A DNA stretch of 64,000 bases, taken from assembly GCA_001692895.1 (NCBI GenBank), contig KV748214.1:558001-622000 (forward strand). Reading direction: 5' to 3'. Shown piece after piece: positions 206 to 39,194 of the stretch; within the stretch, counting starts at the first letter, position 1; each line of letters starts with the position of its first letter. A model generated the notes under the pieces. It was not told the origin of the DNA and did not search any database. It saw only the letters and a program-made list of their open reading frames with translations. The DNA comes from Cenococcum geophilum 1.58. Lineage: Eukaryota > Ascomycota > Dothideomycetes > Gloniales > Gloniaceae. The position numbers and the translations under genes are program-made.

Positions 206-418
206 TGTTAGGTAAAACCTGAGTATATAGTTATATAGCTGCGAGGTATAGGCGACCCGCAGGCGACTCGCCTGTGAGGCACGTACGCTGCACGTGCCTA
301 TGGAAACCCCTTACCTCGCACCTTAGACTCCTCCTTCTCCCTTAAGGATTCGTCTCTGTCTATATAATATACCCTATTGTTCTATTATTAAGCTCCCTAT
401 CTACATTCTTACCTTACA
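206..418 (+). repeat. Left LTR of the small LTR element
   Basis: 213-bp repeat matching 3095-3307. It starts TGTTAGG and ends TTACA, and is preceded by TTAAT. Confidence 0.88.
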
Positions 419-3094: not shown

Positions 3095-3307
3095 TGTNAG
3101 GTNAAACCTNAGCATATAGTTATATAGCTGCGAGGTACAGGCGACCCGCAGGCGACTCGCCTGTGAGGCACGTACGCTGCACGTGCCTATGGAAACCCCT
3201 TACCTCACACCTCAGACTCCTCCTTCTCCCTTAAGGATTCGTCTCTGTCTATACAATATACCCTATTGTTCCATCATTAAGCTCCCTATCCACATCCTCA
3301 CCTCACA
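3095..3307 (+). repeat. Right LTR of the small LTR element
   Basis: 213-bp partner of 206-418. It ends CTCACA and is followed by TTAAT. Several undetermined bases lie near its start. Confidence 0.88.
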
Positions 3308-5202
3308 TTAATAGCAACGCTATTAAGGCCCTTTAGCCTTCCTCTAACGGACCTTCCTCTCCTACCCATAATTAATACAATATAAGTAATAGGGAACGGC
3401 AGTTTATACAATTTAAGCTATAACAGGTGGCTAATATACTACGCCGCGTTCAATAGAGCTTTTAAGGCTTTATACTTACTTAGGTTAGGTTAAAAGAAGG
3501 CTAAGAGGTTATAATTAAGCACCGCCTATATAGCAGTTAATAATAGCGACGGCTTAAACTAAGGCATACTATAAATGATCCGCGCATAGGGGACGTCTAC
3601 TCGCGTTATTCTCTAGTAGACTATTTTACTACAGAGCTCGATAATCTTATCCATTAGCCTTACTTTACTTAATTTAATCATACTACAGACCTAAAGACGC
3701 TTAACTTTAAGCTAGCCTTTAGGACTATCCAGGAGGTTGCCCCTATATAGCATACTATTCTTATAAGACTTATAAGCAATTAGCGCGCCCACCAACCTAG
3801 TTATAACGCTTCACTTTAGACTAATACGTTATCTAAGCAATTATTTACTATTACTAGCATAGTATATCATTCTTAGGCTAAAAAGCGATCTGCCTTCCTC
3901 TCTTTAATACTAAATATCTATCTAGTAGGCTCTAGTATAAAGCAGTAAGTAATTAAGACTCTATTAGGGCTTAGAATATATTATAGTTACTATTAGGCTA
4001 GTCGGTTAATAAACAAAATCACTAAGGCGGTAAAGGTATAGTATTTAGTTTCTCTAAACTCCTAGGCTAACCTACTAACTTCTTTAGAAATAACTCCAGC
4101 TTTAAGCGTCTAATAAGCAGATAGTAATTATCTATAACAACGTTAACTTTAAAGAGAGAAAAAGGGACGAGGTTACGGGCTATACGGATACTATGCGGTT
4201 AATAACAACGGCAGCTACTGTTCTTTACCCTAAGCTACCAACTTCGGGTCTATATTAGTCTATACACAATCTAATAATACCCCTTAGGCTTAAAAATATA
4301 TTGGCTGCCCCTAGTATATCTGGTAAAGACGGTAGGATTAGGTTAAGTATTACACAAAGCCTTATATTAGATATAATTAAGAGAATTTATACAGCTGGCG
4401 TTACTTCTATATTTAGAGATAGTAATTACTATCCTAAAATACTAAGTATATATTGTCTTAACGTAAACAAGACTAAGTTCTAGTAATTTAGGGCTATATT
4501 TAAGGATAAGGGTACTATTAAAGGTATATATAGCGTCTATAAAAGTATATTCCTAAATTAGCTTAGTTTATAGGCACTAGAAAACCCTACCAAAGCTAGG
4601 GCTATCTATAACAACTTCCGTAATCGGCTCTGGCTTATCTATAGAGACTAACTTACAGCACGCCATATTAGGGCTGTTAAAAACGAGCAAACCTAGGCAC
4701 GCCAACTATACGACCGACGGGATTAGCTTCTTAGTTTACCTACGTGGTTCCATATCTAGATAAACCTACTAAATACTATTATCTATACGCATTAGGCACC
4801 CACTCTTTTTAGAGAAAAGGCTTATCATTGCCTATAGGCTAATACTACCATATAGGGCCGCAGTTAGTGTAGTTAGGAGAATGCTAAATACCACCTAATA
4901 GAACCAATTATTGCGCAGGGCTTTACGGCACGCATAGTTACATTATTTTACGCGGCGATATAATATAGGGGTTACCTTATTACCTCTAGCAGAGACTTCT
5001 TTAAGCAAATAGACTACGTTACCAACGCTATTAGTTCCCTTACACCAGATCAATTTTTAAAACTTATAAAAGACGTCCGTCTAGCCGCATTTATATTAAA
5101 TGCGTAGAATGGTAATAGTTCTACTAAGCAACTATATAACGATATTAAATTCCAAACAATATATTATATGCTTTAAGAGGTCAAGCTATTTTTATCTATT
5201 CG

Positions 5203-5366
5203 GTATACTATTAAATATACAGATATAGGTATACTATTAAATATACAGATATAGGTATACTATTAAATATACAGATATAGGTATACTATTAAATATACAG
5301 ATATAGGTATACTATTAAATATACAGATATAGGTATACTATTAAATATACAGATATAGGTATACTA
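5203..5366. repeat. 26-bp tandem repeat, six units plus a partial
   Basis: Units start at 5203, 5229, 5255, 5281, 5307 and 5333, with a partial unit from 5359. Each begins GTATACTATTAAATATACAG. The copies are identical, although the surrounding DNA is heavily RIP-mutated, so the expansion is younger than the mutation. A 26-bp unit is not a multiple of three, so the array did not grow under coding constraint. Confidence 0.92.
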
Positions 5367-6398
5367 AGGCACTTTATTAACCCTCTTATTATCTACTTTT
5401 TTAAGCGCGTCCTAGCACAACTATAGCCGCGAGATATTATTCTATTGGTGGAATCTCTCCCCGGTAAACACGCCTAAGTTATAGTATACAATACTATCCT
5501 CTAGGCTTATAAACTGGCTTAGTAGGGCAACTACACACAAAGTAATTAACCTTAGGCTTAAGTATCTTAACAGTAGCTATAAGATTAAAATAAAGTGTTA
5601 TAAGAACTCAACCTATAATGCGGATATTACATTTAACCAAGTATATCTATTAAATACTTAGGTTAGAACTTTACGTAAAAAACTAGAGGCTATATTTAGC
5701 GAGCATATACCTAGGAGTTATACTACTGCTACAGCATTACCAGATATATTTTTACTTACTTATACTCTCTTTACTTTAGATTTAGCTAAACCGCGGAGTA
5801 CTAAGCAATTAGCTAGTATAAAGTTCTTTAATTCTTCCAATATCTTACAAAAAGGTATTAGGGTGCTAGCGGATAAGGTTAATTAGTTTAACTAATAGCA
5901 TATTTAACAATTAGATACAATTAAAGGGTCATATCCTTCTAAGACTATTAATAATACTAATAAATTTGCTAATATAGAAGACTATACTAACTAGGTTAGG
6001 AAGGGGTTAGATAAGGTTATTAATCCAATAATTAACCTTACAATAATTAACCTTATAACAATCGACCTTATTAACCTTATAGGAATTAAAACGACTAACT
6101 AATCTCTAAACTCCTATAAACTCCTACAAACTCCTGCAAACTCCTAGACAAATTAAATACCTGCATTTATTAATGCTCTAAGCCAGTATACTAGCAGCAA
6201 CTCCCTTAGGTTAAATTTACCTAATCCTTAAACTCCTATAAACTCCTATAAACTCCTAGATTATACGAACTTATATATAAACTTTTATATATACTTTTAC
6301 ACGAAATTTTATATAAGATAACAATAGAACCTGGCAACTATATTCAACTACTATCTACTTATACTACCTACTGGGTAACTCTAGGGCTTCCATAATAC

Positions 6399-6582
6399 CT
6401 TATAGTTAGGCCTATACTAAATAGTGCCGTCGTCTAAGATTACCCCTCGGATTAACATAGCCAGATTAAAGCTTGCCTACGAAGAATGCTTTACAGTTAG
6501 GCCCGCACTAAACAGTATCATTAACTAGGTTTTACCCCTTAGATTAATACAGCCAGATTAAAGCTTACCTATAAAGAACATA
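6399..6582. repeat. About 92-bp tandem duplication, two diverged copies
   Basis: The copies begin near 6400 and 6492. Both contain AGTTAGGC and, about 65 bp later, the shared block AGCCAGATTAAAGCTT. Differences are mainly transitions. Confidence 0.7.
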
Positions 6583-7099
6583 CTATAAAAGCCGCCACTT
6601 TAGCACACCGGAGTGCCAGAAAGCAACACCAACCTACCCCTCCCTCTACCTCCACCCCCCTCCGCCTTACGCTATAATGCCACTACTGCTAGGACCTAGT
6701 AGTGGACTACTAAATAGCTTATACGCCGCCAAAGACCTTAGCCTAGAAGGTGGGGGCAAGGGATCCTTAGGGTCCTTACGCCTACACTTTAAGAGGCTAT
6801 ACCCGCCGGAGCGGGCCGCTACTTAGTAGCGAGCGTAGGTATCCCTAGGCCTACTCACCTGCTATATACCCTTTTCAGAGTACACCCAACACTTATCGCC
6901 CGAGGCTTAGCAGGCAGTGCATCGCTTACCACCTACTAACTCCACCCCTAACTCCGTCTCCATTATCCGGCTAATATAGCCCTAATCTCTTTGCTTATTC
7001 GGCCCCATAACCACTAACCCCGCCACCAACTGCGACCACTATTTACCTTAGGCGGTGGGGGCGTATATAGCAGTTATCTTGCCGCGGGGAGCCCAAGCC

Positions 7100-7520
7100 T
7101 ACGGCAGGCGGATAGGGTCGGCGCGCTAGGTAAGGGCAAACCCGGTAGTAGTAAGGGTAGGTAGCAAGAGGGCGGGCAGTAGGGGGAGGGTCAGAGCAGG
7201 AGCCAGAGCCAGAGCCAGGGCTAGGGCCGGGGTTAGTAATAGTAATAGTGGTGGTGGTCTATAAATATATATAAGCTAAGTACATACTATATAGTTATTA
7301 ATACTTACGGCTCCTCTTCTAACTCCCTACCGCTAAACCATTTATCCTTATCCTTATCCTCATCCTTATCCTCGTTATTAGCGGCAGCGGCAGGCAACAG
7401 CAGCGGCGGCAGCACTAGCGGCGGCGGCGGCGGAGGAGGAGGTAGTAGTAGTAGTAGTACTACTACTACTATCGCTACTACTACTGCTGCTAAGGGGGGA
7501 GGGCGGTGGCAAGGGCAAGG
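7100..7520. repeat. Low-complexity purine-rich and trinucleotide-repeat tract
   Basis: Runs built from GGGCA, CAGAGC, GGC, GGA and TAG trinucleotides stand out in an otherwise AT-rich block. Short microsatellites such as TAGTAGTAGTAG and TACTACTACTAC adjoin each other near 7445-7475 and could fold as a hairpin. Confidence 0.75.
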
Positions 7521-7864
7521 GCGAGGGCGCCTATTAAATCCAGTTAGTTATATCTTATAGTTAATAGTTAGAGTTCTAATACTAACTACGTCTTAATACG
7601 AATTCTACTAGACCAAAGCTAGCAATAATAAAGGAGGGCTGTAGCCCGCAGTATTCTCTCCTTATTAAGAAGGACGTTAGGGGGATACGCACGCACCCAG
7701 AGAGCAGGAGAAGACATTTTAAAAGCTTTTTATTAATAAAAAAAAGCTTTAATAAGAGATGGTTGATAGATATAAGTACAAAGAAGATATTTTTATAAGG
7801 TTAAAGATATTATTAAACAAATTTTTAATTTTAATTTATATTTACTTTAATATTCTTAATTTTC

Positions 7865-8004
7865 TAAACTACTACAAACTCCTAGGCCAATTAAAAACAA
7901 CATACTATCTCCTATAAACTCCTATAACCTCCTACAAACTCCTAGGCTAATTAAAAACAACATACTATCTCCTACGAACTCCTGTAAACTCCTAGGCCAA
8001 TTAA
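7865..8004 (+). repeat. Decamer cluster, forward orientation, downstream of the helicase fossil
   Basis: Three imperfect units of roughly 55 bp, each built from AACTCCTA decamers and ending in CTCCTAGGCCAATTAAA or a close variant. The same word occurs in reverse complement at 23233-23246 on the other side of the helicase gene. Confidence 0.8.
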
Positions 8005-9469
8005 ATATATTTAATACAAAAGTTTTCATTACCCTTTAGAGTCGCATGCCTTATACGCCCTCTCTTTAAAACAGGTATAAAGGTTAGCATTTTATCTACA
8101 TTTAAATCTCTCTCTACTAACGGCAACTAACGTGTTAATGGGGTAGTAGGCTCTAAACTATTACGCCTTTACCTTTATCTTTTTTAACTAAAAGTAGCAC
8201 TTTTCTGCGTGTCTAATATATTAATAACTGGCTACTAAACATTTAACTAGCTATTATTAGGACTATGCCTAGCAACATTTACTCCTAAGATATGAGCTTA
8301 TTTAAGCTATCTTATAGCACGTTAAATACCTTCTAATACACCATTAGGTGGAACAGGTAAGGCTAGTAATAGCAATACTAGCGTACCAATAACTCTATTA
8401 ACCCATTCTTCTAGTTATAAGGTTAACAGCAGTATACTAACTCTCGCTATACCTAATAACGTATATTTATTAGCTCCAGCCATCTTAATTGCGCGTAGCT
8501 ATATAGCCCTTAACGCCTCTTATCTCGCAACCTATATGGCAAGAGTATCGTCCCTTTTACAAATAGTTACGGCGTAATTAGATGCACTAGTATAAGATTC
8601 CTAACTATGCTGGCCTTATAGCTCCTATTACTACTATTACTACTATTATTACTTTCTTGTATATCTTATAGCCTTTATCTCAGTATATAAATCATTAACC
8701 TCCTTAATAAAGTACTAAAGTTGCTCTACTAACAGTCGCCTAGCCTCTTCTCTATAAGGCCATATCTAAAGTAGAGGAGCTTTAGTATAGAGATAATTAA
8801 AGGTAAGCATATCCTAAAAGTCCGGCCCTAGTTTATATACGTATGCAAGCTGCTAACGGTATATTTTATTTATATACCTATCTGGTAGTATAGGGAAGCG
8901 CCTACCTACGCTATATAATGCTTCCGCCTGCGTAGTTATCTGTTTATTAATAAGAGTTAGGGCAAAATAAGGTCGCGAACCGCCTTTTAGCTAAGTAATT
9001 AGTAGTAGGATATCCGGAGCCTAGGTAAGAGTTAAAAGCAGTACCAAATTACAACAACTATAATATTAATCCGGCGGTACGCGAGTAACCTAAACTTATA
9101 GTAGTAACTTATCCTCGCCAAGGTAAGTTAAAAAGGCCTTCCGATAGTATATACCGTTAATTATTTCCATCTATATAGCTAACAGCCTAGCGTAACAAGA
9201 CATTTCTACCTTATTCTAAAATTTAGTTATTATAGCTTTATTAACAGGAGCAGAAGCCTAGCTTAAAGCTAATATCTAAGAGGAAACACTTTTTGTGTCA
9301 CTTACGTCGCTAAGTGTATAGCCGTTAGCTAGTTAACTACGTGCTATTACTTAATCAGCTAGTAGTTAATTCTAATATAGCCTACAAGTAGTCTTCTAAG
9401 GTGCGTCTAGTTATAACTATGGCTATTTAATTTCTGGTTTATTAACACCTTCCGTGTTAAAGGCCTAAT

Positions 9470-9696
9470 TGTTAGCGACTTAGTTAATCGAGACATAAGT
9501 ACGGCAAAATGGTCGCGCAAGCCTGTACAATTGGATTGTCTATAAACAAGAATCTAAAGCTAAAGAAAGGAAAGGAGAAGAAGGGGAGCGCCGCTCAAAG
9601 CTATATACGATCTTCGCGTCACGTGACCGCAATATACGGCAATCTGTGGCAACTTGCCGGTGCGTAGTTCTGCCAAGTTCTACTAGTGCCGTAACA
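9470..9696 (-). repeat. LTR of gypsy copy 1 (3' LTR)
   Basis: 227 bp, TGTTAGCGAC to GCCGTAACA. Contains CACGTGACC and TTCTGCCAAGTTCT. Confidence 0.9.
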
Positions 9697-12600
9697 TTAC
9701 CTCCCCCTCTAAAAAAGCCTGCCCTTAGGCTTTGCCGCTAAAAGTCTTAGTAAGAGAATCTGACTAATTAGACAACTTTAACCGCCGGTCGAAGTTCCTA
9801 GATATCTTAATACCTTACGTGACTAAGAAATTTCTAGGGTGTTTTTGTCCTTATATTCTTCTAGTAGCTTATTATCTTTATTATACCAGCATTCTATCCA
9901 CTTATTTAGGTACTTTAGTAGTTTAGGTTTGTTAGGGTAACGGCTATAAAACTCTTAAAGCTTATAGGGGCTACCTATAAAGTTCTATATAGGGTACTAA
10001 GTGGGGTCTGGGTTATATCCTTTCTAACTAACACAATACTTTAACGTTCCCTTTATAAGTTTATAGGCTAGTATTTCTTTAATTTCCCATTTATTATCGT
10101 CGTTAACTTAAATTAGCAGGGGAGGTTTATTCTTTTGTCCGGGTAGTAGGTTATTTATAGCTTTCTATAGCTTATTTAGTAAGAAGATAGGGTGGACTTT
10201 AATTAAGTTTAGGAGCTTAACCTTATATAAGTTGCCTACTTTATTAAGAATCTTATACGGTCCTGCTATTTTATAGTTCAGCTTACGGCTAAGCCGTTCT
10301 ATCTTCTAGTTCTTTATTATAACCTAGACTATATCGCCTATAGTAAAGTTAGGCTCNCGCCTATACTTATTNNCCTNCTNTTNTATTAATTTCTANGCCT
10401 TTTTTNGGTTNNTATNGGCTACTTTCTAGGCTTCTTCTAAGCGCTTAGCGTACTGCTAGGCTTCCTTATAAGATAGTTTTTCGCGTATAGTCTAGGGCCC
10501 TTCTAGTCTTTCCTAGTTAAAGCTTATATAGGGTAGGTAACCTATTTCTAGTTAAATAGGGGCAAATCCGGTAGAGTTGTGGGGTAGGGTCGCTTAGGCG
10601 TAGTCTATTAAGGGTAATAGTTTAGCCTAGTTATCCTAAAAGTAGTTAACGAAAGGCCGGAGTCTTTAGTCTAAGTATTAATTCACAATCTCCGTTTAAC
10701 CGTCTGTCTGGGGGTAATATGCCGTAAAAAGCTTTAGCTTAATGCCTAGAATCTGGGTAAACTTATTCTAAAAGGCTAATATAAACTGCGGCCCGCGGTT
10801 AGATATAATAGTGTCTAATAGTCCGTAAATTTAGTAGACGTAGTGGATATATAGTTGGGCTGCCTCTTTAGTATTAATATTTTTATAATAGGGAATTAAG
10901 AACGGGCGCTTACTAAAGCGGTTAACTAGGATTATAACTATATTATATCCGTCATGGTCTAGAGGTAGCTTATAAAAGTCTATAGAGATATATTGCTAGG
11001 GGCGGTCGGGTATTAGGAGGGGTTTTAATAGTCCTAGGGTTTTATCTCGTGGGATTATAGACCTACGGCAGTCGTTACAGTTCTATATATAGCGGTTAAT
11101 ATCCATAACTATTCTAGGCTAGTAGTAGCAGTTGCCAATAATCCTATGGGTCTTATTCTTTCCGGGGTAAGCCGTAGAGACCTAGATATATGCTTTAGTA
11201 ATAAGCCGAGTCCGTAAGTTCTATTCCTTTATTACTACTAGCCATTCCTAATGCTTAAGTAATCCATTTTTAAGGACTATAGGCTGGTAACGTTCTTTGC
11301 CTTTTTACGGTACTCCTATAGAGAAGGGGCCGTACGGTTTATCTATAGCAATTTATCAATTAAGTTAAGTCCTAAAGGGTTAATAGGATACATCTTAGCG
11401 CCTAAGGGGTCTGTACTTAGTTCTGCCTATATTTAGGGGTTAAGGTGCTTTAGTTATAGTAGCATCTAAGTCCGTAATAAGATCTTTATAGCCATATAGT
11501 TACCTAGGTCTTATTTACGCCTAGTAAGAGTATCCGCATGGTTCGTAGCGCCTAGTTTATATATAATTAAGAAGTTAAACTAAGATAGGACGTCCGCCTA
11601 GCGTGCCTATTAGGCTATAAGGGCCTTAGTTATTATAAAGTATTCTAGGGCCTTATAATCTAATACTACTTTAATAGGTTTAAGGGTCCCCTCTAGCTGT
11701 ATACACCAGTGCTAAAAGCTAGAGATAATAGCTAGCATTTCTTTATTATAGATATGGTAGTTTAGTTTAGTATCTATTATAGTCTTTAAATAGTATACAA
11801 TAGGGTGCCATTCTCCGTCCGGTTGCTTCTAGGAAAAAACACTAGCTATCGCGCCGTTTAAGGCATTAGTTTCTAGCATTAAGGGCTATTCTAGGTTAAA
11901 GTGGGCAAATAGGGGGGCTAATACTAGCCGTTTTTTAAGCTTATTAAAGGCCTATATATATATAGCGTTAAAGTAAAAGGGCTGGTCTTTTCTAGTAAGG
12001 CGGTTAAGAGGCTAGGTGATTCTACTATAGTTCTTAATAAAGCGTTAGTAGAAGTTATAGAAACCTAAAAATAATTGCACCTCCTTTACGGTCTAAGGGG
12101 GCGTCCACTAGTTAATTACAGTCGTTTTCTCTAGGTTGGCCTTAATTCCGTTTATACTAATAATAAAACCTAAGTACTTTATACGCTTAACACTAAATTC
12201 TAACTTCTTAATATTGGCCTGGAGGCTAGCTTCGCGGAGCTGTTATAGGACTTTATAGACGTACTCCTTATATTCCAGTTTATTCTCTAAATAGATTATA
12301 ATATTATCTAGATAGGCCGTATAGAAGTTATTAAGGTAGTTAAAGAGTACATTATTTATATACCGCTGGTACATAGCTAGTCCGTTAGTTAGTCTAAAAG
12401 GAAGTACCTTATATTTATACGTCCCGTAACAGATCCAGAATATAGTAAGATTCTTAAACCTAGGGTTTATCCTAATTCGGTAAAAGGCCTAGTGGATATT
12501 AAGCTTTATAAAAACCTTAGCTCTACTTATTTAGGTAAGAGTCTTATTAAGTAAGGGTAGCGGGTAGCGGTCCTTGCGGGTTATATTATTTAGCTTACAG

Positions 12601-15221
12601 TAGTTAATATAAAAGCGCAGTCCTCTATTTAGCTTTTTAATAAAGAAAATAGGTAAATTAAAAGGGGCTTAGCTAGGCTTAATAAAGCCCTTATTTAGGT
12701 TATTAATAAGGTACTACTTTATAGCCTATAATTCGGCAATAGACTATAGGTAGAGAGGGCTAAAGCTAAGGGTGCTTNCCTTATCTTGCTTAATCTTAAT
12801 CTTATAGTTATATAGTTAGTAGGGTGGAAGTATATTAGACGCTACCTTAGAGAATATATCCTTAAATTTCTGGTGTTAATTAGGCAGTTTTTACTCTACT
12901 AGTTCTTTATCCGTAAGCCCGCTTTCCTATCTACTAAGCTTACTTTCCTTTTCCTTAATTATTTAGTTAATTTTATATAAGCTAGTTATAAAAGTAATAG
13001 TATTAGGCTAAACTAGGTTCTAGTAGAATCCTATAGCGCTAATATAGCAGACATTAACTAGTAGGAGGTCTATAGGTTTCTTTAGCGTCCGTTAGGCCGT
13101 AGTTTGCGGTATAGGGTTTATAGTCTTCTTTAGCTTACGTTCCATTTTCCGTAAGTTATCCTTTCTATCTATTAGTTTAGTATGGCGTCTAATATCCCTA
13201 GCTTTCCTTTATAGCTTTATAGGGTTCTCTATAGGGAACTTAGCTAGGTCACTACTGACTTTCTAGGTCTTTAGTACGGGTGGCGTAATATAAATAGTCT
13301 GGGGGCGGCATAATATATAGATCCGTTGCGGGTTAAGCTATACGTCCTTCTTAAAGGCCTAGTCTTTGCGTATAGCATCGGCCTAGTAAATAGTATTAAT
13401 CTAGGGCCGTATAAGGTTTTCTATTATAATACTGATTTTTTTTATAAAGGAAGGGGTCGGGGGTAGAGTTTTAGGCTAGATAAGCCGTCTACTCCGTACT
13501 TCGAGCTATAAGCCTAAATAGGCTAGCCATTTTCTTTTTAAAATTATATCGTGGCTTCCTAAGTCCGTAATGAGAAAGGGGACATTATACTACCTTCGTC
13601 TGTTAATACGGAGGTAGATCTATAAAATAGTTATAATAGGTAGCCCTATCTATCCGTTATAACCGCAAATAGGGATTAGTTTGGGCAGTTCTTTAAAGGG
13701 TACATTTAAAAAGTCAGCCAGTTTTGCAGCGCACTTTATGTTAATTAAGGTAAAGGTATTTACTCCTAAGTTAGCTAAAGTAAAGGTTAAAACTTAATAT
13801 CTATTACAAAATAAAGTATAAGGGATAGTGCAGCTTCTTCTACTAACTAGCCGACCTAGATTAATATGTGACATATTAATCCCTTTTAACCCTAGAGAGG
13901 AGTCTTCCTCTAGGGTTTCTCTTTTTCCAGCTTTATACTATTTTCCTAAATTAACAGGACCTCATTTATCCTTACCTTTATTAGGCAGTTTCTTATAGGG
14001 TGGCCTATTTAACCGCACGAAAAGCAAGCTCCTTAATCGCTAAGGGCCTATATATAGGGGTCACTGTATATAGGCCGGGTATACACCGGGCCCGCAGTAG
14101 GGGTAGCTGCGCGGCTAGCTACTAGGTTGGCTGTAGGAGTTGCCAATTATGCCAGGGCACTACGGGCCGTACTTATAGTACTTATAGCCTAGTTTGCAAG
14201 GTTTCTAGTTTTTAGCTAATTAACGCGTGCCTTAATTTAATAGAGGCCTTAGTTAATAGCTAGGCAATAATCTATAAGTTCCTTTAACGTCTATACCGTA
14301 GTATAAGCTAGTAATACGGCCCGCTATAGGTCTAGGGTAAGCTTATTAAAGAGGTCTAGTAGTAGGTCTTTTTAGGGGATCTAGGCCTATCCGGCTAGGT
14401 ATAGAAAGCGGGTTTAAAAGGCTAAAAAGGTCTCTATTGTTTTTATATTTAGGCTTTTATAGCTAAGGCGGGCGTTTTATACTTTAAAAGGGTCCTTATA
14501 AATAGAAGATAAGTGTTTAATTATTTCTTCTTTAGAGATAAAGGGGTCTGCTAAGTCTTTAGTGTATCGCGGGCGTAAATGCGTCTAGGCGTCTCCGCCA
14601 GTACGGCCAAAGACGTAGGCTATTCTGGCTCGGGCGTTAGGAAAGTAGTCTATATTAACTTTAAGCTTATCCCGTAATTAGAGCTTCTAATTATTAAATA
14701 TAGGGTTAGTTCCGTCTATAAGTAGTAGAGGGTCCGCAACCTTTGCTAACCGCTTTAGTGCTATATAGGCCTTAGTAGATCTACTAAGGCGCTAGGATAG
14801 GGCCTAAAGGACTATAGTAAGTCTTTAATTGTTTAATAATAACTTATTATTAGATATAGGGGTATCTCTGGCTTTAAGCAGCTCTCGCAATTGTTTAATT
14901 TTGGTATTAGCAGCCGCAAGCTCCGCCTAGGGGGTTAAAACGTTAATTGTTTCTTTGTCTAAAGTATTTAAGGGTCCTACAGCTGCTTTACCTACTGCTA
15001 TGGTTTGTGGCATAGTGGTAGGGGTGTTAGGTAATTCCGGGTAATTTCTTTAGGGGTTCTGGTCTGTGCGTGTCTTATAGGTCCTTTCTTTAGGGTTCTG
15101 TTCTTTTCTTTTAGGTCCTGTCCTTATAGTCCTAGTAATGTCTTTAGGGTCCTGTTCTGTGTTCTTGTAGATATATTTAAGTTCCTTCTTAGGAAGAAAG
15201 AGTAGAGTGAGCTTTAGATAA

Positions 15222-15448
15222 TGTTAGCGACTTAGTCAATCAAGACATAAGTACGGCAAAATGGTCGCGCAAGCCTGTACGATTAGATTGTCTATAAACG
15301 AGAATCTAAAGCTAAAGAAAGGAAAGGAGAAGAAGGGGAGCGCCGCTCGAAGCTATATACGATCTTCGCGTCACGTGACCGCAATATGCGGCAATCTGTG
15401 GCAACTTGCCGGTGCGTAGTTCTGCCAAGTTCTGCCAGTGCCGTAATA
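15222..15448 (-). repeat. LTR of gypsy copy 1 (5' LTR)
   Basis: 227-bp partner of 9470-9696. Its terminal CA has become TA. Confidence 0.9.
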
Positions 15449-15774
15449 TAATACAGCAGAAATATATAACCTTTACTAGTTTAACCATAGCCCCATCTAC
15501 CGCGACTAAGACGCTACTAATGATTTATAAAACTCTTTGTAATTAGAAACTTTTAAAGCGCTACCTATTTAATATCCAGGACATTAATACCTATATTAAG
15601 AGAGGTTGTTACCACTATAATCCTTATAGACGATAAGGATTTCTTAAACTCTTTATATTAAGTAGTACGATTATACTCTTAAATATATACAGTATACACC
15701 TAGACTACATTAGTAACGTAATAGGCTTTACCATCAGCATTTATAGTATACTGTTTATTAGGTATAAAGGTTAA

Positions 15775-15945
15775 TATCAGTATAACTCTCTTTATCAACG
15801 TGCACGAATATCACTTATAGTGGTACGTATGCGGTGTTAAAGTTGGTAGTTAATTGTTGTCTAAAAGAAAGGGGTTACTCCAAGGTCAGACAGTTAGTCT
15901 CGCTTCGTAGTCCCGTAACTATATCACGTAATTAATATTCCAACA
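15775..15945 (-). repeat. LTR of the full copia copy (3' LTR)
   Basis: 171 bp, with the core ATAACTCTCTTTATCAACG. The same family occurs at 22005, 33551 and 36471. Confidence 0.9.
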
Positions 15946-16029
15946 CTAGAGCAACTCTAAAAAGAAGGCTAATCTACACTCCAAAGTTAAGTCTTTTAGA
16001 CTACTCGTAACGTATACGCAATAGCGACT

Positions 16030-16121
16030 TTCTGCCAAATTCTGCCATATTACCAAATTCTGCCAAATTCTGCTATAATACCGAATTCTGCCAAATTCTG
16101 CCGAACCTAACTTCTGCCAAC
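16030..16121. repeat. TTCTGCCAAA short-period array inside the copia element
   Basis: About seven iterations of an approximately 10-11-bp unit TTCTGCCAAA, some separated by ATACC-type spacers. The array lies just inside the 3' LTR. Confidence 0.85.
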
Positions 16122-16545
16122 TAATTAGGATTTTCCATCCCCGGGATAGAAAATTGCTATTAGCTCGCTTAGTACTAGCGCTAACGCTAAACTAAAGTCA
16201 AATCCGTTCGCTTAACCTACCCTATAGCCTATAATTCGACTTAATTCGTGTTAATAAGCTATAATAGTGCCGTATAGGGCTTACCCTTTATTATAGCATC
16301 CGCAGGGTTAGTATCTCTATTAATTCACTTAATTTTAGTAATCTGTCTTCGTTTATAAGCTTGGCGAAGGCATATTACATTAATTATTAAGCGTTTCTTT
16401 TACGTAGTTTTTAGTCGGATAAGACAGTTATATAAAGACTTTAAATTAGTATAGAGAATAAGTAGTAAGTTAACCTATAAGACCTTGTTTAGCGTAGATT
16501 TAATTACAGCGCCTATATTAAAACTATATACTATACCATATAACT

Positions 16546-16790
16546 TATAAGCTTTGCAGTGTAAAGAATTAAATGAACGACTTGATTGTAAATGCAGCTC
16601 TAAAGCCTCTATATATACACGAAGAAGGTGGAGGAAATAAGACATAAAAAGGTGATAGGCAACTGAAATGGGAACGGTGATCTGTAAGCAATATTGATCT
16701 GCGATCAATATATAGGGTGGCGTTGACGCAGTCTTGGAGCCTTCCAAGCGGTGATCTTGTGTCTCAGCACAGTGTCGGTAGTCGGTTACA
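16546..16790. mobile_element. Solo LTR nested in the copia element
   Basis: A 245-bp unit beginning TATAAGCTTTGCAGTG and ending GTAGTCGGTTACA, flanked by an exact 5-bp duplication TAACT (16541-16545 and 16791-16795). It shares both ends and much of the interior with 63574-63790. The other copy starts TGTAAGC, so the TA start here looks like a mutated TG. TG...CA ends, a 5-bp duplication and no interior coding region make a solo LTR the simplest reading. Its internal and full-length parent is not in this window. Confidence 0.75.
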
Positions 16791-19700
16791 TAACTTTAAG
16801 GCTAATACACTCCTAGTAACTCTTTTGCACTTAATTAAGGACTAATAAACAATATTTGCCTTATTTAAGGCGTTTGCTAGTATAAGTACGTAGCCAATTT
16901 GCGAAGATAAGTCCTTATTATTGGCGAAGGAAGCGTCTGTAAATACTAGGAGTTATAAGGTATTAACGTCTAGCTTAACAAACTTTAGGCCTTTATTTAC
17001 GTTCTTAATCTACCAGCTTAATTACTTATTAAAACTCTTTATATTATCTTTAACTAGGTTAATTACCTAGGTAGTAAAGGATAGGTTAAATAAGGCCTCT
17101 AGCTAACAGACTAAGGCAATATAGGCTCCTCTAGCGTGTTAAGCGATATACTAGTCCTTTAGCGTAAGTAGGCCACGCGTAACTCCTCTAGAGCTAGTGC
17201 TATCTACTAGTGTAGTATTAACCACACTAAGGTTCTTATACTGGCGTTTTTATGTTAGCGTAATACTCCTATCTTATATTAATTAAATAAGTCCTCCATT
17301 AAACTTAATTAGTATATTAGCGGTTAATTACTCTCGCTCCTTAGCTATAAATTTAGCCTTATATAGTTCGCTTTGTTTAGCCTCTATAAAGGTATTATCT
17401 GCGAGAAATAGTATATTATTAGTCTGTAGGCTAACGATTCTAAAAGGCTTATCGCTATAAAGCAAGTAAGGGTTGTATATAAACTGGTCCATTTACAGCT
17501 AATTAACATAGTGTAAATAGTAGGTCTTAAACTAGTAGTTTCTAGCTTTAGGTACTCTATAAAGTGGCTTTATAACCTTTAGAACGGAGTCCGTATTAAT
17601 TCCTAATTGTTTATTTAGCTTATATAGTGGTTATACGTAGAACTCGCGGTTTAGGTTCGTAGTAGACTGGACGTAGGCTTATAAGATGTCTTAGAGGTAG
17701 AGTTATATCTATGGTAGCATAGTAGCGATACAGAGAATCAGCCGCTGGCTAACCCGTTAAATTATTAGTAACTAAGTAAGAACTAGCTCTTTCTCCAAAT
17801 TATTATAGGCCTATATAATAAGTTATAATTTCTTAAAGGCTCTATCGGTTTCCTTATTCTTAATCTCGTTAATAAACCGTAAGTTAAAGAATCTAACCCC
17901 CTTTAGCATATTATATAGCTTAATAATCTTAAAGACGCCTTTTTTAAGTAGGCCTGTAACCTCCTTTTGTCGTAAAGCGCTAAATTAGGTGTTATTATCG
18001 TTCTATAAGTAGATAGCGATATTAGCAATATCTACAATATCACCCGTAAAGGCACCTATATCTATTATAGCGTCTATAGTAGCCGTGTCTGCGATAGCCG
18101 TAAGTAATAGGTATTTATGGGGGCAACCTCTGCCTCGCTTTGGCGATAGCTATAGTTCGGCTTTAGGTAACGATTAAGGTTTAGCTAGTAAAGGTACTAG
18201 TTTAGCTAATTTAACAGACTCTCGTGGTTTAACTAGGTCTTATAGGTCTAGTAAGTAAGGTTTTACAACTATAGAGCAGAAGGTTATAGGCCTATTTAGT
18301 AGCTTTACGGTATAGGTCTTACCGTTAACGGTAAGTAGCGTATATAGCCCATCCCAATAACCACTCTGGCCAGTATTGCCTTCTTTCTAAACTAAGACAG
18401 GCGAACTAGGTGGGAGGCCGTAAATGGCGTTAGTTCGTGGTCCGTTTTGCATATTAAGAGTATTAGCAATCTATCGTTTAGCTTATAGCTTCTAGATTTC
18501 TATTATTGCTTTCTTAATAGCCGCAGCTTGCTGTATAACTAAAGGTAATAGCGCGTCCGATTTAACTATTTAGGGGTAGACTCTAAAGACTAGGAGTATA
18601 GGGATTAGGCCTTCTAGGCTAGCCGTGTTATTAATAGCTTTAAAGGCCATTTATAGGGCTATCTCCTTACTAATTTTAGGGATTTTAGTTATAATGATTT
18701 AGTAGGCTCGTTGTAGCGGACCGTGGTAGCGCTCTACTATTCCAATAGAATTATGTAATTTAACTAAAACTAACTTTATAGTTACTCCCATGGTAGCAGC
18801 GTAGTGCTTAAACTCCTTGCTAATAAAGTTCTTTCTAGTGTCTATAGTAATTAGGTTTAGTGGTCTTAAGTAGCTATTAATCTAGCACATCCGTAGAATG
18901 TCCTAAGTGTGCTTAGCGCTAATATCTTATAGCCATCTGCCAGCTTAAAATCGAGTTGCTTTGTTAACTACGTGTAATAGGGGGGAGCCGCTAATATATA
19001 TAATGTTAACAATAATATTATAATTAAAATTAACGTCGTCTTATAGGGTGAAGCGAAATCTACCTAGAGATCTGCTATACTTCTAGTAATAGTAGCAGAG
19101 TTTGGTTAGCTCTTTAATAGCAGATCTATTAGTGTTATAGCCGTGGCCAGCCTTATTAAGAAGCTTTTATAGTCTATTAACTAANAGGTAACNAAATNNA
19201 CGGTATAGACGTCGTAGTTNNACGTTAGTTAAGTAGNAAGGGTTTATATTAAAAGACTTAACTAAATAGGACTATAAGGAGAAGCTCTATAAGAGAAATA
19301 GGTAGCTAAATCGTTTAACTACTAGCACCCTTTTAGTGCGAGTGATAATAACGTCCTTTAGGTTATCGTATTTAATATAAAGTCTATCCATATCTACTAA
19401 GCAAAGTAGAAAAGGGGTATCTGCTTTAACGATATGGAATTATACCTTACCTATAGGGCTGTTGACGTCTATAGTTCCGATAGACGTAAATGCTCCGATT
19501 CCGAATTGGACAGTTACTTAACCCTTAGTTAACATATTAAGACTTACGGACTTATCTACGGCCTATAGAGCTTGGAATTAGCTATAGCCAGCCGTAGACT
19601 TACGCGAAGCACCTATATTAATTATAATTCCCATAAAGACCGTTAAGGTGTATCGTAACGCTATAGTTGTAGCCGTACTATAGGTAAATAGGTTGGTCTC

Positions 19701-21589
19701 CGTATAAGGTTCTGTAGTAAACTCTATAGTAAGTTCTAAAGCCATAAGCAAGTATATATAAGCCTTATTGGCTAGCTCTACGCTTATAGAGATTGCTTTC
19801 TCTATGGTAAGTATTCTAAAGGTGGTAATATAGGCAGAACTATTATTAGGTTCTCCGGCATCGTTCCTAAAGTTATTAGCGTCTTTAGCGTCTTATATAT
19901 AGGCTTCAAAGTCTAAATTATCGTCTTTATCTTTTTCGCAAGCAGCGACGTATTGCTTAAAGTAGTTGTCAAAGTTACCCTTATTATGGCCCTTAATATT
20001 AGTAAAGCGTCTCTTATAATCGTCTCTAGACCGATTACGCTCCTCCTCTATATATTTCTATAAACAGCAGTCCTCCTTCTTACAGACGTAGCACTTAGCC
20101 TTTAGTCTGCCGTTAGTTCTATAGGGGCGATTGCTACTATAGCGGTTAGTGTTTCGGTCTTAATTCTGGTTATTTCAGTAGTAGCGTTAATCCGTAAAAA
20201 AAAAGCTTAGTAAGACGATCTTATTAAGGCCTATAGGGGGTATTCTTTTTCCCATGCAACAATAGAGGATTATAGTTTACTAATTAACTAAGAGAGGTCT
20301 TCTAAAGGGTTGGAGACAGCAATACGGCATACTAGTACTCCCTAGTAAGCAGTAACTAGCTTATTTATAAGAATGCGGTTTATATAGAGGTCTGGGTGTA
20401 GTTTATAACGTTACTTTAGCAGTTTATCTATAAGCAGTTGGAAGTTCTAATAGATTAACTTATTAGGGTTCTCGTCTATAACTTCTTAAAGGGTTATACT
20501 ATTCCACTCTATAAGGTTCTTGCGGTAGTATTCTAGCCCTTTAAAAAACTGTTATATATAGTTATAGGCTTCCGTAAAAGGTCTTAACTCAAGGTTACTA
20601 TTATAGTAGTAGTCCTGAGCAAGCCCTTTTAGCATGCTAGGGAATGCTACTGTGTAGCCTTCTGGTGGCAAGCCAGATCTCTTACAGATGTTGTAGAAGA
20701 TAGTTAACTTAAAGTTAAAGCTGTCACTAACTCCATTGTACTTTTGGTCGTCTATATAGATCTTTACAATTATAGCTACCTCTTTACTATATCCAGGCCC
20801 TTGCCTAGGTCCTTACTCTACACTAAGCATAACTAGTTCAGGTAGTGTATATATAGGTAGCTGTTGCGGCTACTATAGTTGCTGTAACTATAGCAATTAG
20901 TTAATAAGAGTGTGGATTTAGTTATAATTAGAGGATTAAGGACCGGGAGGGGTAGCAGAGATAGCAGGGGTAGTGATTAAAGTAGCTAGCGGTACAGCAA
21001 TCGGAGTAGCTGGTGGTGTAGCAATCGGAGTAGTTGGCGGTATAGCGGTTAGAATAGCTGGTAGAAGAGCTGGTGATACTTATATAGCTAGTAAGGGACT
21101 ATAGAAAGGTGTTAACGCCGGTAGAGCTATAGCAAGCTTATCTAAGGTTAAATTAAGTTGGTCTTATAGAGCTATAGTAATTATTGGCTTAATATCATTA
21201 AGGGCTAGACCAATCTCTTCGTCTATCTATTTGTGAAACTCTTCTTCTTAGAGGAGGTCGAATAGTGCTTCTAAGATTAAATATCTGTTATTGTGCTTTC
21301 CAACATATACTCCTCTCTTAAGTAGATAAATACGTAACTTTGCTTTTATATTAGTTCGCATACGTTTAAAATCCTCAGTAGTAAAGCCTTTAAATTCCTC
21401 CTTAAATACTATCTATAGTATATAGTCTATAAAGTTCTCCTATGTGTGTACGTAGACCTTTATTACTATATAGTCTCCTAGCTCATCTTTAAAAGCTATA
21501 GTAGCAGTAATTCTATTACTATGCTTTAATATCTTTTCTTACCACTCCATTATAGTGTAAAGCAGTGTGCGTTTAAGTAGAGGTTGTAA

Positions 21590-21690
21590 AGGTTTAAGGT
21601 TCGAGATTTAAGGTTTGAGGTTAAGGTTAAGGTTAAGGGTTGAGGTTAAGGTTAAGTTAAGGTTAAGGTCGAGGGTAGTGTGTACGTTCT
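21590..21690. repeat. GGTTAAGG-type hexamer array in the copia 5' region
   Basis: Iterated GGTTAA and GGTTTAAG words just upstream of gag (minus orientation). A longer array of the same kind is at 35925-36060 in the shortened copy. Confidence 0.8.
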
Positions 21691-22004
21691 CTACAGCCGT
21701 TAGGCCTATAAAGTATTCTTAGCAAGATTGCTATTCTCTTAGCGATCTGTTATATTAGCTGTAAAGCTAGTACAAATTCTCTTAAGCTTAAGGGAGGTCG
21801 TAATCTTCTCTAAATAAAGATATAATTCTCTAGGCGATCTAACGCGTTAGCAGTTAAGTTAATACGTGGTCTTAAGCTTTAAGGGTAATATAGCTTTCTC
21901 CTTTAATAAAACAAACAAGAACTAGGCAATCGTAACCTATTTCTAGTACTACTTCTTAAGCGCTAGCTATTGCGTATTTCCTAATCTATATATCTACTAA
22001 TCAG

Positions 22005-22175
22005 TATCGGTATAACTCTCTTTATTAACGTGCACGAATATCACTTGTAGTGGTACGTATGCGGTGTTGAAGTTAGTAGTTGATTGTTGTCTAGAAGAAA
22101 GGGGTTGCTCCAAGGTCAGACAGTTAGTCTCACTTCGTAGTCCCATGACTACGTCACGTAATTAATGTTCCGACA
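22005..22175 (-). repeat. LTR of the full copia copy (5' LTR)
   Basis: 171-bp partner of 15775-15945. It ends TTCCGACA and is followed by GTTAA. Confidence 0.9.
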
Positions 22176-23010
22176 GTTAAAGTCTTTATAAGGAGTACTC
22201 TTTAAAAGTATACCGCTGCTTCCTAAACAGACCAACGACTGTCTATAAAGACAATCGTCTTTGGTATTTGCTCTAAAACTGCGGTATCTAAATCTATACA
22301 CATATCTAATAGGAAGTATAGTACGTCCTATAAATCCACCTTACCTCTACCAAGCGGCAGTACGTAGATTAAGACATCGGGGCGATTTACAGAAGTCCTA
22401 ATAACCTCAGTCTGGTATATACAACTACTAATAGAGCAAAAACCGGCGTTCTAAAGAACTAGTTGCTCTACCTCCTTATTAAGTATAGCCGAACAACTAA
22501 ACCAAACTACATCCTAACAAAGAATTATCCGTAGCTCGCCTATTATAGTAAACGCTAGTTAAAACGTTTCCTATTACTTTACTAGATAACACTTATTAAT
22601 TATAATAAGTCTAATCCTAGCCTATAGTTCTGGGCTCTTTAACGCAGCCCGGAAAGACTTTAATAAGGCCTACTTAGGACTAAAAAGAACGTATATATAC
22701 ACACCATCCTTTACCTTTACAATTAAGGCCTTATCTATAATCCTATTCTTAGCAGTAATAAGATATAGATTAGAACCATTAAGCTTCCGGATATTATCTA
22801 ACTGCTTATCCCCAAGCTTACTTAATAGGACCAACTAGATAGTAATCTTGCCCATTAAGATTAAAAAAGTATAAAAAATAAGACTCTTTCCAAAACCGGT
22901 GCGTACAATAAGAAGTATATTACTAAAACCAAATATTAAACATCTTAAGGTGCGCACCTGCTCCGGATAAGGGGTCTAAGGGCGGCCTCCTAGGTTTATA
23001 TGCTGGAGTA

Positions 23011-23960
23011 TTTATTTAAGACATTTTTTTAAAACATTCGTCTATAAAGGAACATTTCCCTTATACTAAGCTTCCTAAATAATAGACGGCAATTCTTCTA
23101 GATCTATTTAATCAATTGCTGCAATACGACTTGGTTACAATATTAGGCGTAGATAAGCTTCTGCCCCACCTATCCCCGCCTTCCACCAGCCGCCCTTATA
23201 CCATTTCTTCCTACAATCGCGGTTAGGCGGCATTTAATTGGCCTAGGAGTTTATAGGAGTTCACAGGAGTTTATAGGAGTTTATAGGAGTTAGTAAGAAT
23301 ATAGCCTAGTAGTATTCTAGCCAGTAATAGGTGTATATAGTAGGGTAATATATCCTAGTGTCCCGCATATAAGCGTTCTGGTTAACCTAGGAGTTTGTAG
23401 GAGTTTATAGAAGTTTATAGAAGGTTATAGGAATCGACTTATAATAAAAAATAGACGTAATATGGTTATAGTGTGGATAATAGTAGGTAGAACGTCCGTA
23501 GGTGGTATAAAGATGCGTTTTAAAAACGCGTTTAAGGTTTTACGCGCTATATCTCGTGCCTCTAAATATATTATAATTAGTATTTATACGTATAGAATTA
23601 AAGGTTATTACCTAAAGATTAAAATGCATTAAATAAAGTGATAATAACTGTTAATAGGGCCTCTGTAGAGCCAGTTAAAGCTAAAATACACAATCTAAAA
23701 TATTTAGTTATTACTAAAGAGACTCCTATAAGCTCTTAGACGCTCTATAGAAGATTGCTAGTAATAAGGGGTACGTAGGGGGCTAAAACTAGTTTATGGT
23801 TCTAATTGGTCTAGGAGTTCGCAGAAGTTAGCGTGCGGCCTATATATTGCCCCAAGTCACCTAAAATCTTCTACAAAGCGTCGGATTTATAAGATAATAG
23901 TATTATACCTTCCTTTGTTAACACCTTAATTAATACTACTATATACGTTCTAAATATAGC
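23011..23960. other. Spacer between the divergent helicase and Helitron fossils, with inverted decamer clusters
   Basis: No gene was recognised. The reverse-complement decamer TAGGAGTTTA occurs in clusters at 23233-23296, 23384-23431 and a weaker one at 23804-23830. The first follows TTAATTGGCCTAGG, the exact inverse of the block at 7865-8004. The 5' parts of both flanking genes probably lie at the edges of this spacer. Confidence 0.7.
23233..23296 (-). repeat. Decamer cluster, reverse orientation
   Basis: TTAATTGGCCTAGG followed by five units of the type GAGTTTATAG. It is the inverted counterpart of 7865-8004. Confidence 0.85.
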
Positions 23961-24040
23961 AGATCCTACTGTAATTAAGTGCAGCAAGTGCTATATCTAT
24001 AAGCCCCGCCTTAACTTTGTTAAAGATGGCCCTTTAAAGA

Positions 24041-24267
24041 TGTTAGCGACTTAGTCAATCGAGGTATGAGCACGGTATGAGGGACGTGCAAGCCTGTATA
24101 ATTGGATTGTCTATAAACGAGAATCTAAAGCTAAAGAAAGGAAAGGAGAAGAAGGGGAGTGCCGCTTGAAGCTATATATGATCTTCGTGTTACGTGACCG
24201 CAATATGCGGCAATCTATAGCAACTTGCCGGTGCGTAGTTTTGCTAAGTTCTGCTAGTGCCGTAATA
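24041..24267 (-). repeat. LTR of gypsy copy 2 (3' LTR)
   Basis: 227 bp, preceded by AAAGA. Confidence 0.9.
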
Positions 24268-27200
24268 TTACCCCCCCCTCTAAAAAAGCCTACCCTTAGG
24301 CTTTGCCGCTAAAAGTCTTAGTAAAAGAATCTAACTAATTAGATAACTTTAACCGCCGGTTAAAGTTCCTAGATATCTTAATACCTTACATAACTAAGAA
24401 ATTTTTAGGGTGTTTTTATCCTTATATTCTTCTAGTAGCTTATTATTTTTATTATACTAGCATTCTATCTACTTATCTAGGTACTTTAGCGATCCGGGTT
24501 TATTAGGGTAACGGCTATAAAACTCCTAAAGCTTATAGGGGCTACCTATAAAGTTCTATATAGGGTACTAAGTGGGGTCTAGGTTATATCCTTTCTAACT
24601 AATATAATACTTTAACGTTCCCTTTACAAGTTTATAGGCTAGTATTTCTTTAATTTCCCATTTATTATTATCGTTAACTTAAATTAGTAGGGGAGGTTTA
24701 TTCTTTTATCCAGGCAGTAGGTTATTTATAGCTTTCCGTAGCTTATCCGGTAAGAAAATAGGGTGGACTTTAATTAAGTTTAGGAGCTTAACCTTATACG
24801 AGTTGCCTACTTTATTAAGAATCTTATACAGTCCTACCATCTTATAGTCTAGCTTACGGCTAGGCCGTTCTATCTTTTAGTTCTTTATTATAACTTAGAC
24901 TATATCGCCTATAGTAAAGTTAGGCTCGCGCCTATGCTTATTTGCCTACTATTTTATTAATTTTTAGGCCTTTTCTAGGTTTGTATAGGCTACTTTTTAG
25001 GCTTCTTCTAAGCGCTTAGCGTACTGCTAGGCTTCCTTATAAGATAGTTTTTTGTGTATAGTCTAGGGCCCTTTTAGTCTTTCCCAGTTAAAGCTTATAT
25101 AGGGTAGGTAACCTATTTCTAGTTAAATAGGGGCAAATCCGGTAGAGTTATAGGATAAGGTTGCTTAGACGTAGTCTATTAAGGGTAATAGTTCGGCCCA
25201 GTTATCCTAGAAGTAGTTAATAAAAGGCCAAAGTCTCTAGTCTAAGTATTAATTTATAATCTCTATTTAACCGTCTATCTAAGGGTAATATACCGTAAAA
25301 AGCTTTAGCTTAATGCCTAGGATCTAGGTAAACTTATTCTAAAAGGCTAATATAAACTGCGGCCTATAGTTAGATATAATAGTGTCTAGTAGTCCGTAAA
25401 TTTGGTAGACGTAGTAGATATATAGTTAGGCTGCCTTTTTAGCATCAATATTCTTATAATAGGGAATTAAAAACGGGCGCTTACCGAAGTAGTTAACTAG
25501 GATTATAACTATATTATATCCATCACGGTCTAAAGGTAGCTTATAAAAGCTATAGAGATATATTACTAAGGGCGGTTAGGTATTAAGAGGGGTTTTAATA
25601 GTCCTAGGGTCTTATTTTATGGGATTATAGACCTATAGTAGTCGTTGCAGTTCTATATATAGCGGTCGATATCCATAACTATTCTAGGCTAGTAGTAGCG
25701 GTTGCCAATAATCCTATAGGTCTTATTCTTTTTAGGGTAGGCTATAAAAACCTAGGTATATGCTTTAGCAATAAGCCAAGTCCGTAAGTTCTGTTCCTCT
25801 ACCACTACTAGCCGTTCTTAATACTTAAGTAATTTATTTTCGAGGAACTATAGGCTGGTAACGTTCTTTGCCTTTTTATAGTACTCCTATAGAGAAGGGG
25901 CCGTACGGTTTATTTATAGCAATTTGTTAATTAAGTTAAGTCCTAAAGGGTTAATAGGATATATCTCGGCGCCTAAGGGGTCTATACTTAGTTCTGCTTA
26001 TATCCGGGGGTTAAGGTACTCTAGTTATAGTAGCGTCTAGGTCTATAATAAGATCTTCGCAGCCGTATAGTTACCTAGGTCTTATTTACGCCTAGTAAGA
26101 GTATCCGCATAGTTTATAGCGCCTAGTCTATATATAATTAAGAAGTTAAACTAAGATAGGACATCTACCTAGCGTGCCTGCCGGGCTATAAGGGCCTTAG
26201 TTATTATAAAGTATTCTAGGGCCTTATAATTTAATACTACTTTAATAGGTTTAGGGGTCCCCTCTAGCTATATACACTAGTGCTAAAAGCTAGAGATAAT
26301 AGCCAGCATTTCTTTATTATAGATGTGGTAGTTTAGTTTAGCATCTATTATAGTCTTTAAATAGTATACAATAGGGTATTATTCTCCGTCCGGTTACTTC
26401 TGAGAAAAAATACTGGCTATTACGCCGTCTAAGGTATTAGTTTCTAGCATTAAGGGCCGTTCTAGGTTAAAGTAGGTAAGTAAAGGGGCTAATACTAGCC
26501 GTTTTTTAAGCTTATTAAAGGCCTATATATATATAGTATTAAAGTAAAAGGGCTGGTCTTTCCTAGTAAGGCGGTTAAGAGGCTAGGCGATCCTGCTATA
26601 GTTCTTAATAAAGTATTAGTAGAAGTTATAGAAACCTAAAAATAATTACACCCCCTTTATAGTCCGAGGGGGCGTCCACTAGTTAATTATAGTTGTTTTC
26701 TCTAGGTTGGCCTTAATTCCGTCCATACTAATAATAAAACTTAGGTACTTTATACGCTTAACACTAAATTCTAACTTTTTAATATCGGCCTAGAGGCCAG
26801 CTTTGCGGAGCTGTTATAGGACTTTATAGATATGCTCCTTGTATTTTAGTTTATTCTTTAAATAAATTATAATATTATCTAGATAGGCCGTATAGAAGTT
26901 ATTAAGGTAGTTAAAGAGTATATTGTTTATATACCGCTAGTATGTAGCTAGTCCGTTAGTTAGTCTAAAAGGAAGTACCTTATATTTATACGTCCCGTAA
27001 CGGGTTTAGAATATAGTAAGATCCTTAGACCTAGGGTTTATCCTAATTTAGTAAAAGGCCTAGCGGATATTAAGCTTTATAAAAACCTTAGCTTTACTTA
27101 TTTAGGTAAGAGTCTTATTAAGTAAGGGTAGCGGGTAGCGGTCCTTGCGGGTTATATTATTTAGCTTATAGTAGTTAATACAGAAGCGTAGTTCTCTATT

Positions 27201-29834: not shown

Positions 29835-30061
29835 TATTAGCGACTTAGTTAATTAAGGCATAAGCATAGTATAAGGGACGTGCAAGCCTATACAATTGGA
29901 TTGTTTATAAACAAGAATCTAAAGCTAAAGAAAGGAAAGGAGAAGAAGGGGAGCGCCGCTCGAAGCTATATACGATCTTCACGTCACGTGACCGCAATAT
30001 GCGGCAATCTGTGGCAACTTGCCGGTGCGTAGTTCTGCCAAGTTCTGCCAGTGCCGTAACA
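29835..30061 (-). repeat. LTR of gypsy copy 2 (5' LTR)
   Basis: 227 bp, ending GCCGTAACA and followed by AAAGA. Confidence 0.9.
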
Positions 30062-39160: not shown

Positions 39161-39194
39161 TCTCGTGCTTATTAGTACTTACCAAATCACGTAC

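Follow-up and report, generated by a model that had tools for sequence, protein, structure and literature searches.

Here we report that short decamer arrays face each other across the broken remains of a RecQ-type helicase gene in contig KV748214.1 of Cenococcum geophilum 1.58 (Ascomycota, Dothideomycetes; GenBank assembly GCA_001692895.1), within a 64,000-nucleotide (nt) stretch (positions 558,001 to 622,000 of the forward strand, hereafter referred to as the window). We tentatively propose, with somewhat less than even confidence, that the arrays are part of a DNA-transposon relic that was killed by repeat-induced point mutation (RIP), carried the RecQ-type helicase on its minus strand together with a convergent putative transposase of the DUF6589 family, and worked like KolobokH or AcademH. 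We favour a DNA-transposon relic with repeated binding sites because the arrays switch orientation at the helicase open reading frame (ORF) and DUF6589 homology lies adjacent to them.

The repeat unit is AAACTCCTAN, with a period of 10 base pairs (bp), and AACTCCTA forms an 8-nt core within a decamer. The window contains 27 copies of this core where 4.24 would be expected, and none of 100 shuffles attained 27. A preliminary description of this DNA had pointed to opposite-facing decamer clusters on the two sides of the helicase gene, and the orientations confirm it: 17 of the 27 copies fall in the six places flagged there, with 10 of 10 on the plus strand at the left and 7 of 7 on the minus strand at the right, and the remaining ten, elsewhere in the window, divide into five plus and five minus. 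Defining a run as at least two units spaced 10 or 20 bp apart, with one mismatch allowed per unit, we found seven runs in the whole window, five on the plus strand within 6109–7994 and two on the minus strand within 23244–23415, and no other run of the decamer unit anywhere in the window at that tolerance. Runs of exact units numbered five, against none in 200 order-3 Markov copies of the first 40 kb (positions 1–40,000).

On the left, the plus-strand arrays are array C (6108–6149; four decamers, ending in CTAGACAAATTAAAT), array B (6229–6260; three decamers) and array A (7865–8004), in which the decamers are organized in 60-bp superunits and CTAGGC(C/T)AATTAA occurs three times. The minus-strand series on the right consists of array A' (23234–23291; five decamers, ending in CTAGGCCAATTAA), array B' (23388–23432; three clear decamers, or 4.5 according to a tandem-repeat program, ending in CTAGGTTAACC) and remnant C' (23802–23830; one good and one worn decamer, ending in CTAGACCAATTAG). 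The clusters listed in the preliminary description are thus real arrays on both sides, except that the right-most place (23804–23830), with its one good and one worn unit, is no array. Arrays B and A are separated by a gap of 1.6 kb, in which the sole plus-strand match (6262–7864) is to S1FA, with an E value of 0.2. Part of this gap (6580–7540) appears by eye to be richer in G+C and of low complexity.

CTAGGCCAATTAA, or a variant of it, closes several arrays on their helicase-facing side. The word is exact at 7882 and 7992 on the plus strand and at 23234 on the minus strand, with a one-mismatch copy at 7942 (plus), and so bears out the claim that both sides share a longer word in inverted orientation. 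When the 19-mer AAACTCCTAGGCCAATTAA was scored with transitions at no cost, eight places in the first 40 kb scored at least 14, whereas 20 Markov copies averaged 0.1 such places. The eight are 4056, 6138, 7876, 7936 and 7986 on the plus strand, and 23234, 23378 and 23802 on the minus strand. The match at 4056 is weaker, falls in presumed 5′ sequence of the DUF6589 gene, and may be due to chance. Between the innermost arrays, exact inverted identity extends over at most 22 nt, TAAACTCCTAGGCCAATTAAAT (7985–8006 and 23232–23253), and the longest inverted word in the first 40 kb is 27 nt, against 15–20 nt in 30 Markov copies; its placement at 6231–6257 and 23265–23291 is deduced from the listed 17-mers. 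Among the 40 inverted 17-mer pairs listed out of 59, 34 join left to right arrays, five belong to one TAG/CTA simple repeat and one is of another kind.

The interval between the innermost arrays measures 15.2 kb, and self-comparison assigned 12.4 kb of it to two long terminal repeat (LTR) retrotransposons, which rules out the 15 kb as a single unit. The first, RT1 (copy 1, 9470–15448, minus strand), is bounded by LTRs of about 227 bp and a target-site duplication TAAT, and contains reverse transcriptase, RNase H and integrase domains. The second, RT2 (copy 1, 15775–22175), has LTRs of about 171 bp and GTTAA on both sides as its duplication; its probable minus strand is taken from gag-like text. 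No retroelement domain was matched in this copy of RT2 by Pfam, and its identification rests on the LTR pair, the duplication and the gag-like text. Pfam returned nothing on the plus strand of 15450–23300 and only DUF5826 (E = 0.0037) on the minus strand, and the plus frames of RT1 gave no Pfam match. The domain scans left out, among others, the minus strand of 3310–6107 and 6262–7864, most frames of the second RT1 copy and the inter-ORF DNA beyond 39 kb.

Outside the two retrotransposons, three minus-strand pieces read as one gene split by two LTR elements, with putative first and last codons. The 5′ piece (22176–23233) contains helicase-motif text and matches TIGR00614 (E = 1.1e-6, 27.7 bits), upholding the earlier identification of a RecQ-family helicase gene between the facing arrays; in a comparison with PDB chains it gave E values of 0.0076–0.05 for WRN and 0.11–0.97 for RecQ5. 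The middle piece (15453–15769) reads RIIVVTTSLNIGINVLDI and RLSRGR, resembling helicase motifs V and VI, and its top PDB chain is eIF4A (E = 0.23). The Pfam matches to DEAD (E = 0.013) and Helicase_C (E = 0.1) fall in separate pieces, the first and the second, respectively. As judged from its sequence, the predicted product is a RecQ-type superfamily 2 helicase core and a member of the RecQ helicase family. It is the one RecQ gene in the stretches scanned, which do not comprise every frame of the window, and a search of IMG/VR for RecQ relatives yielded four stretches that fit a pattern, none of which was confirmed.

Frame arithmetic links the three pieces. From the putative ATG (23233–23231), which touches the right copy of the inverted end motif, to 22176 there are 1,058 nt. 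Carried over RT2 at the 5-bp duplication, to resume at 15769, this frame has codon starts divisible by 3, as does the frame in which the motif V/VI text is read. Carried on over RT1, its codon starts are 2 modulo 3, and it stops at TAA (8001–8003) inside the left copy of CTAGGCCAATTAA, which delimits a presumed 3′ piece (8001–9469) that probably belongs to the RecQ gene. The gene would thus total 1,058 + 317 + 1,469 = 2,844 nt, about 2.84 kb, with its putative ATG and TAA at inverted copies of one motif. Stop counts in the first piece support the expected frame (18, against 38 and 31 in the other two, of 352 codons). In a codon score trained on Helitron frames, the expected frame is the highest of the minus frames in five of seven overlapping sub-pieces and the second in 22991–23233 and 8368–8734.

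To the left of the arrays, homology to DUF6589 lies on the plus strand at 4364–5245 (Pfam E = 7.4e-23) and, in another frame, at 5302–5697 (E = 6.5e-6), with coordinates computed from the Pfam match positions. An open-looking frame spans about 3313–6100, adjoining array C at 6108; the homology itself ends 0.4 kb left of that array and is convergent with the RecQ gene. Between the two matches, amid RIP-worn DNA, a 26-bp unit is repeated 6.3 times at 100% identity (5202–5366), which is either a young expansion or an assembly effect. Further left lies an LTR element without a domain match, RT3 (206–3307; target-site duplication TTAAT; strand not assigned), which may have landed in 5′ sequence of the DUF6589 gene. 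To the left of RT3 a frame again seems open by eye, so the gene may start near or beyond position 1. Part of the DUF6589 text may resemble a GDQLT-type word of fungal repeat proteins. The name DUF6589 was absent from the literature searched; we regard the protein as a putative transposase that may have formed one element with the RecQ helicase.

The first 40 kb bear the marks of saturated RIP. The composite index is 1.08–1.72 in 20 of 20 segments of 2 kb, TA/AT is 1.63–2.03, (CA+TG)/(AC+GT) is 0.31–0.59, and TGA and TCA words number 2–23 per segment. Beyond 42 kb the composite index ranges from −0.63 to 0.16 and ORFs of ordinary type are present, among them those with GST domains (42345–43025) and DUF2418 (50235–51362). 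The arrays and the RecQ gene therefore lie in dead repeat DNA, and the fungus must be RIP-competent.

DNA transposons that carry a RecQ or related helicase are already known from fungi, so that the general kind has a precedent. KolobokH comprises fungal DNA transposons with a RecQ helicase and a transposase gene, and in the rhodophyte element Kolobok-1_CCri the RecQ gene lies on the complementary strand, according to the available parts of PMC9587614. The present arrangement is similar in that a RecQ gene lies near a possible transposase gene of a fungus and on the opposite strand, as in Kolobok-1_CCri; it differs in that the neighbour matches DUF6589 and in that neither a TTAA duplication nor Kolobok termini were seen, the outer ends being unlocated. 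AcademH elements, of animals and fungi, likewise place a helicase with DEAD and Helicase_C domains in a DNA transposon, and are present at low copy number in Ascomycota among others (PMC10799480, in part). Their target duplications of 9–10 bp (PMC10045372, in part) were not seen here, where the outer ends are unlocated. In the parts available, PMC12210899 and PMC9970103 mention Academ or cite the AcademH paper and say nothing further. Facing decamer arrays around a RecQ gene are named in none of the titles or abstract openings of the literature searched. The preliminary description did not recognize the structure from a described element family; RecQ-carrying fungal transposons have been described, in so far as the excerpts of those papers extend. 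To our knowledge, KolobokH has no decamer arrays.

In a living element, the facing arrays would have been clustered binding sites for the element's own protein and would have marked the edges of the helicase module, a role that we liken to that of the subterminal repeats of other DNA transposons, and the RecQ helicase would have opened the DNA during transposition. CACTA (En/Spm) elements, which have CACTA termini and a 3-bp duplication, offer an analogy for the arrays as protein-binding sites, in that a short subterminal motif repeated near both ends is read by a transposon protein. The likeness is one of working only.

Several observations weigh against a relic of this kind. The arrays enclose RecQ alone and not the RecQ–DUF6589 pair; the start of the DUF6589 gene may fall outside the window, leaving the ends of the element unseen; and no outer ends or outer terminal repeats of the unit were found. 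Nor was a target duplication of the unit found, although no dedicated scan was made around it, its outer ends being unlocated. With the arrays masked, the left (5900–8000) and right (23230–24040) flanks showed no inverted similarity beyond the null, as 197 and 40 of 200 order-2 Markov pairs scored as high under two gap costs. The same holds for the flank just outside array A (equalled or exceeded by 76 and 34 of 200 nulls), for the C–B spacer compared with each of the two spacers on the right (169 and 188, and 36 and 37, of 200) and for the inner flanks, 8005–8300 against 22930–23233 (77 and 94 of 200). Given these null-level comparisons, the arrays and their end motif are the only inverted feature found. 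Outside the arrays, a score of 49 had seemed to point to inverted similarity, 30 plain shuffles reaching 33 at most, but this disappeared against order-2 Markov nulls. We also gave up the idea that the TTAA of the motif was where a Kolobok element inserts, in the middle of a palindromic array, since the inner ends have no inverted repeat in common. The preliminary description had suggested a mobile or amplifying unit with subterminal inverted repeats: the facing arrays, the surrounding mobile-element DNA and the nearby possible transposase gene agree with it, but 12.4 of the 15.2 kb proved to be LTR elements, the similarity stops at the arrays, and no common ends or target-site duplication of the unit were found.

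The gene model has weak points of its own. The TIGR00614 match, at 27.7 bits, is far below the curated cut-off of 219.8, which we attribute to a damaged and partial copy. The 3′ piece has no family match of its own, and its stop counts (48, against 50 and 59, of 489 codons) do not single out the expected frame. Some plus-strand frame outscores the expected one in all seven sub-pieces, so the codon score is uninformative on strand, which rests on the RecQ homology. Furthermore, no C/DxxH signature, a mark of the DDD/E transposase of Kolobok, was seen by eye in the damaged DUF6589 piece, the predicted models of the DUF6589 and RecQ pieces were too poor to use (mean predicted local distance difference test scores of 39.9 and 42.1), and the RT1 duplication measures 4 bp in copy 1 and 5 bp in copy 2.

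The chief rival, which we consider unlikely but serious, is that the helicase gene is a RIP-hit copy of the telomere-linked RecQ helicase (TLH) family, whose members spread from one fungal chromosome end to another, its arrays being ordinary flank minisatellites spread by recombination, with no transposase involved. Fungal telomere-linked or subtelomeric RecQ and RecQ-like genes are repeated genes in Stagonospora nodorum (X26), Mycosphaerella graminicola (Zymoseptoria) and Colletotrichum higginsianum, and the S. nodorum X26 and M. graminicola families share RIP damage or a very low GC content with the present gene; subtelomeric helicase repeats also occur in Fusarium poae, and short tandem repeats are frequent in subtelomeres (PMC4522978, PMC3017866, PMC5576322, PMC4994206 and PMC8381367, each in part). 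By contrast, the Colletotrichum helicase pairs with DUF3505, as the available text has it, whereas the neighbour here is DUF6589 and the stretches scanned contain no DUF3505 match; facing decamer arrays go unmentioned for the known families in the same excerpts. Facing orientations across an ORF are not what ordinary minisatellites would lead one to expect. Two TTAGGG units with up to one mismatch found no match in the window, which is cut at positions 1 and 64,000, and the change to ordinary DNA, near 42 kb, is seen on just one side; a position at a chromosome end is therefore not established.

It is rather doubtful, although conceivable, that the RecQ ORF between the facing arrays, with its start and stop codons in contact with the inverted motif, was the mobile module of a kind of element not yet described, alone or with a DUF6589 transposase, in which tandem decamers replace ordinary terminal inverted repeats. 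An improbable reading is that ORF and arrays were a mobile cassette of their own without a transposase, inserted beside an unrelated DUF6589 gene. The ORF does fill the interval between the innermost arrays almost exactly, with about 2,840 nt once the LTR elements and duplicated bases are subtracted, and the array orientation flips at the RecQ gene, but the cassette is present in one copy only and neither its target duplication nor its outer ends were found. We also know of no mechanism by which a helicase moves DNA alone, and count this against the cassette.

Scarcely probable, too, is a regulatory origin, in which the right arrays are repeats in the RecQ promoter or 5′ leader, the DUF6589 gene has arrays C and B at its 3′ end, and the facing order is coincidental. 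The motif includes CCAAT, the right arrays are 5′ of RecQ on the RecQ strand, and arrays C and B are 3′ of DUF6589 on the DUF6589 strand, all as such an origin would have it; array A at the presumed 3′ end of RecQ, where no promoter is needed, nevertheless has the inverted 22-nt word, and the CCAAT would fall just a few bases from the ATG. It is very improbable that the right repeats belong to the neighbouring Helitron rather than to RecQ, since, for all that Helitron domains extend rightward from a gene start probably near 23.8–24.0 kb and remnant C' lies near the presumed start of the Helitron ORF, no repeat run occurs inside the Helitron or at its far side, and the left arrays would be unexplained.

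The Helitron remnant occupies about 23840–39200, its start judged by eye, and has DUF6570, Helitron_like_N and PIF1 matches. Each of the two LTR families found in the RecQ gene has a second copy that interrupts this remnant, RT1 copy 2 (24041–30061; duplication AAAGA) and RT2 copy 2 (33551–36641; duplication GTTAG), both to the right of the RecQ interval. A 257-bp tandem array of 3.9 copies (39201–40190) lies where the RIP-saturated DNA ends on the right. Scattered N within repeats make the assembly uncertain at 3049–3110 and 19185–19237. Scans of the window DNA matched no RNA family and no tRNA, and one exact three-unit pattern of the array had no match in IMG/VR.

In several fungal genomes, RecQ-like genes lie in repeats and have been filed as subtelomeric genes or as transposon cargo. 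If the decamer arrays belong to a DNA-transposon relic, as we tentatively propose, they would provide a structural mark of the limits of a helicase unit, with which it could be asked in any assembly whether such genes moved as elements. Such a relic would also link the unexplained family DUF6589 to transposition.

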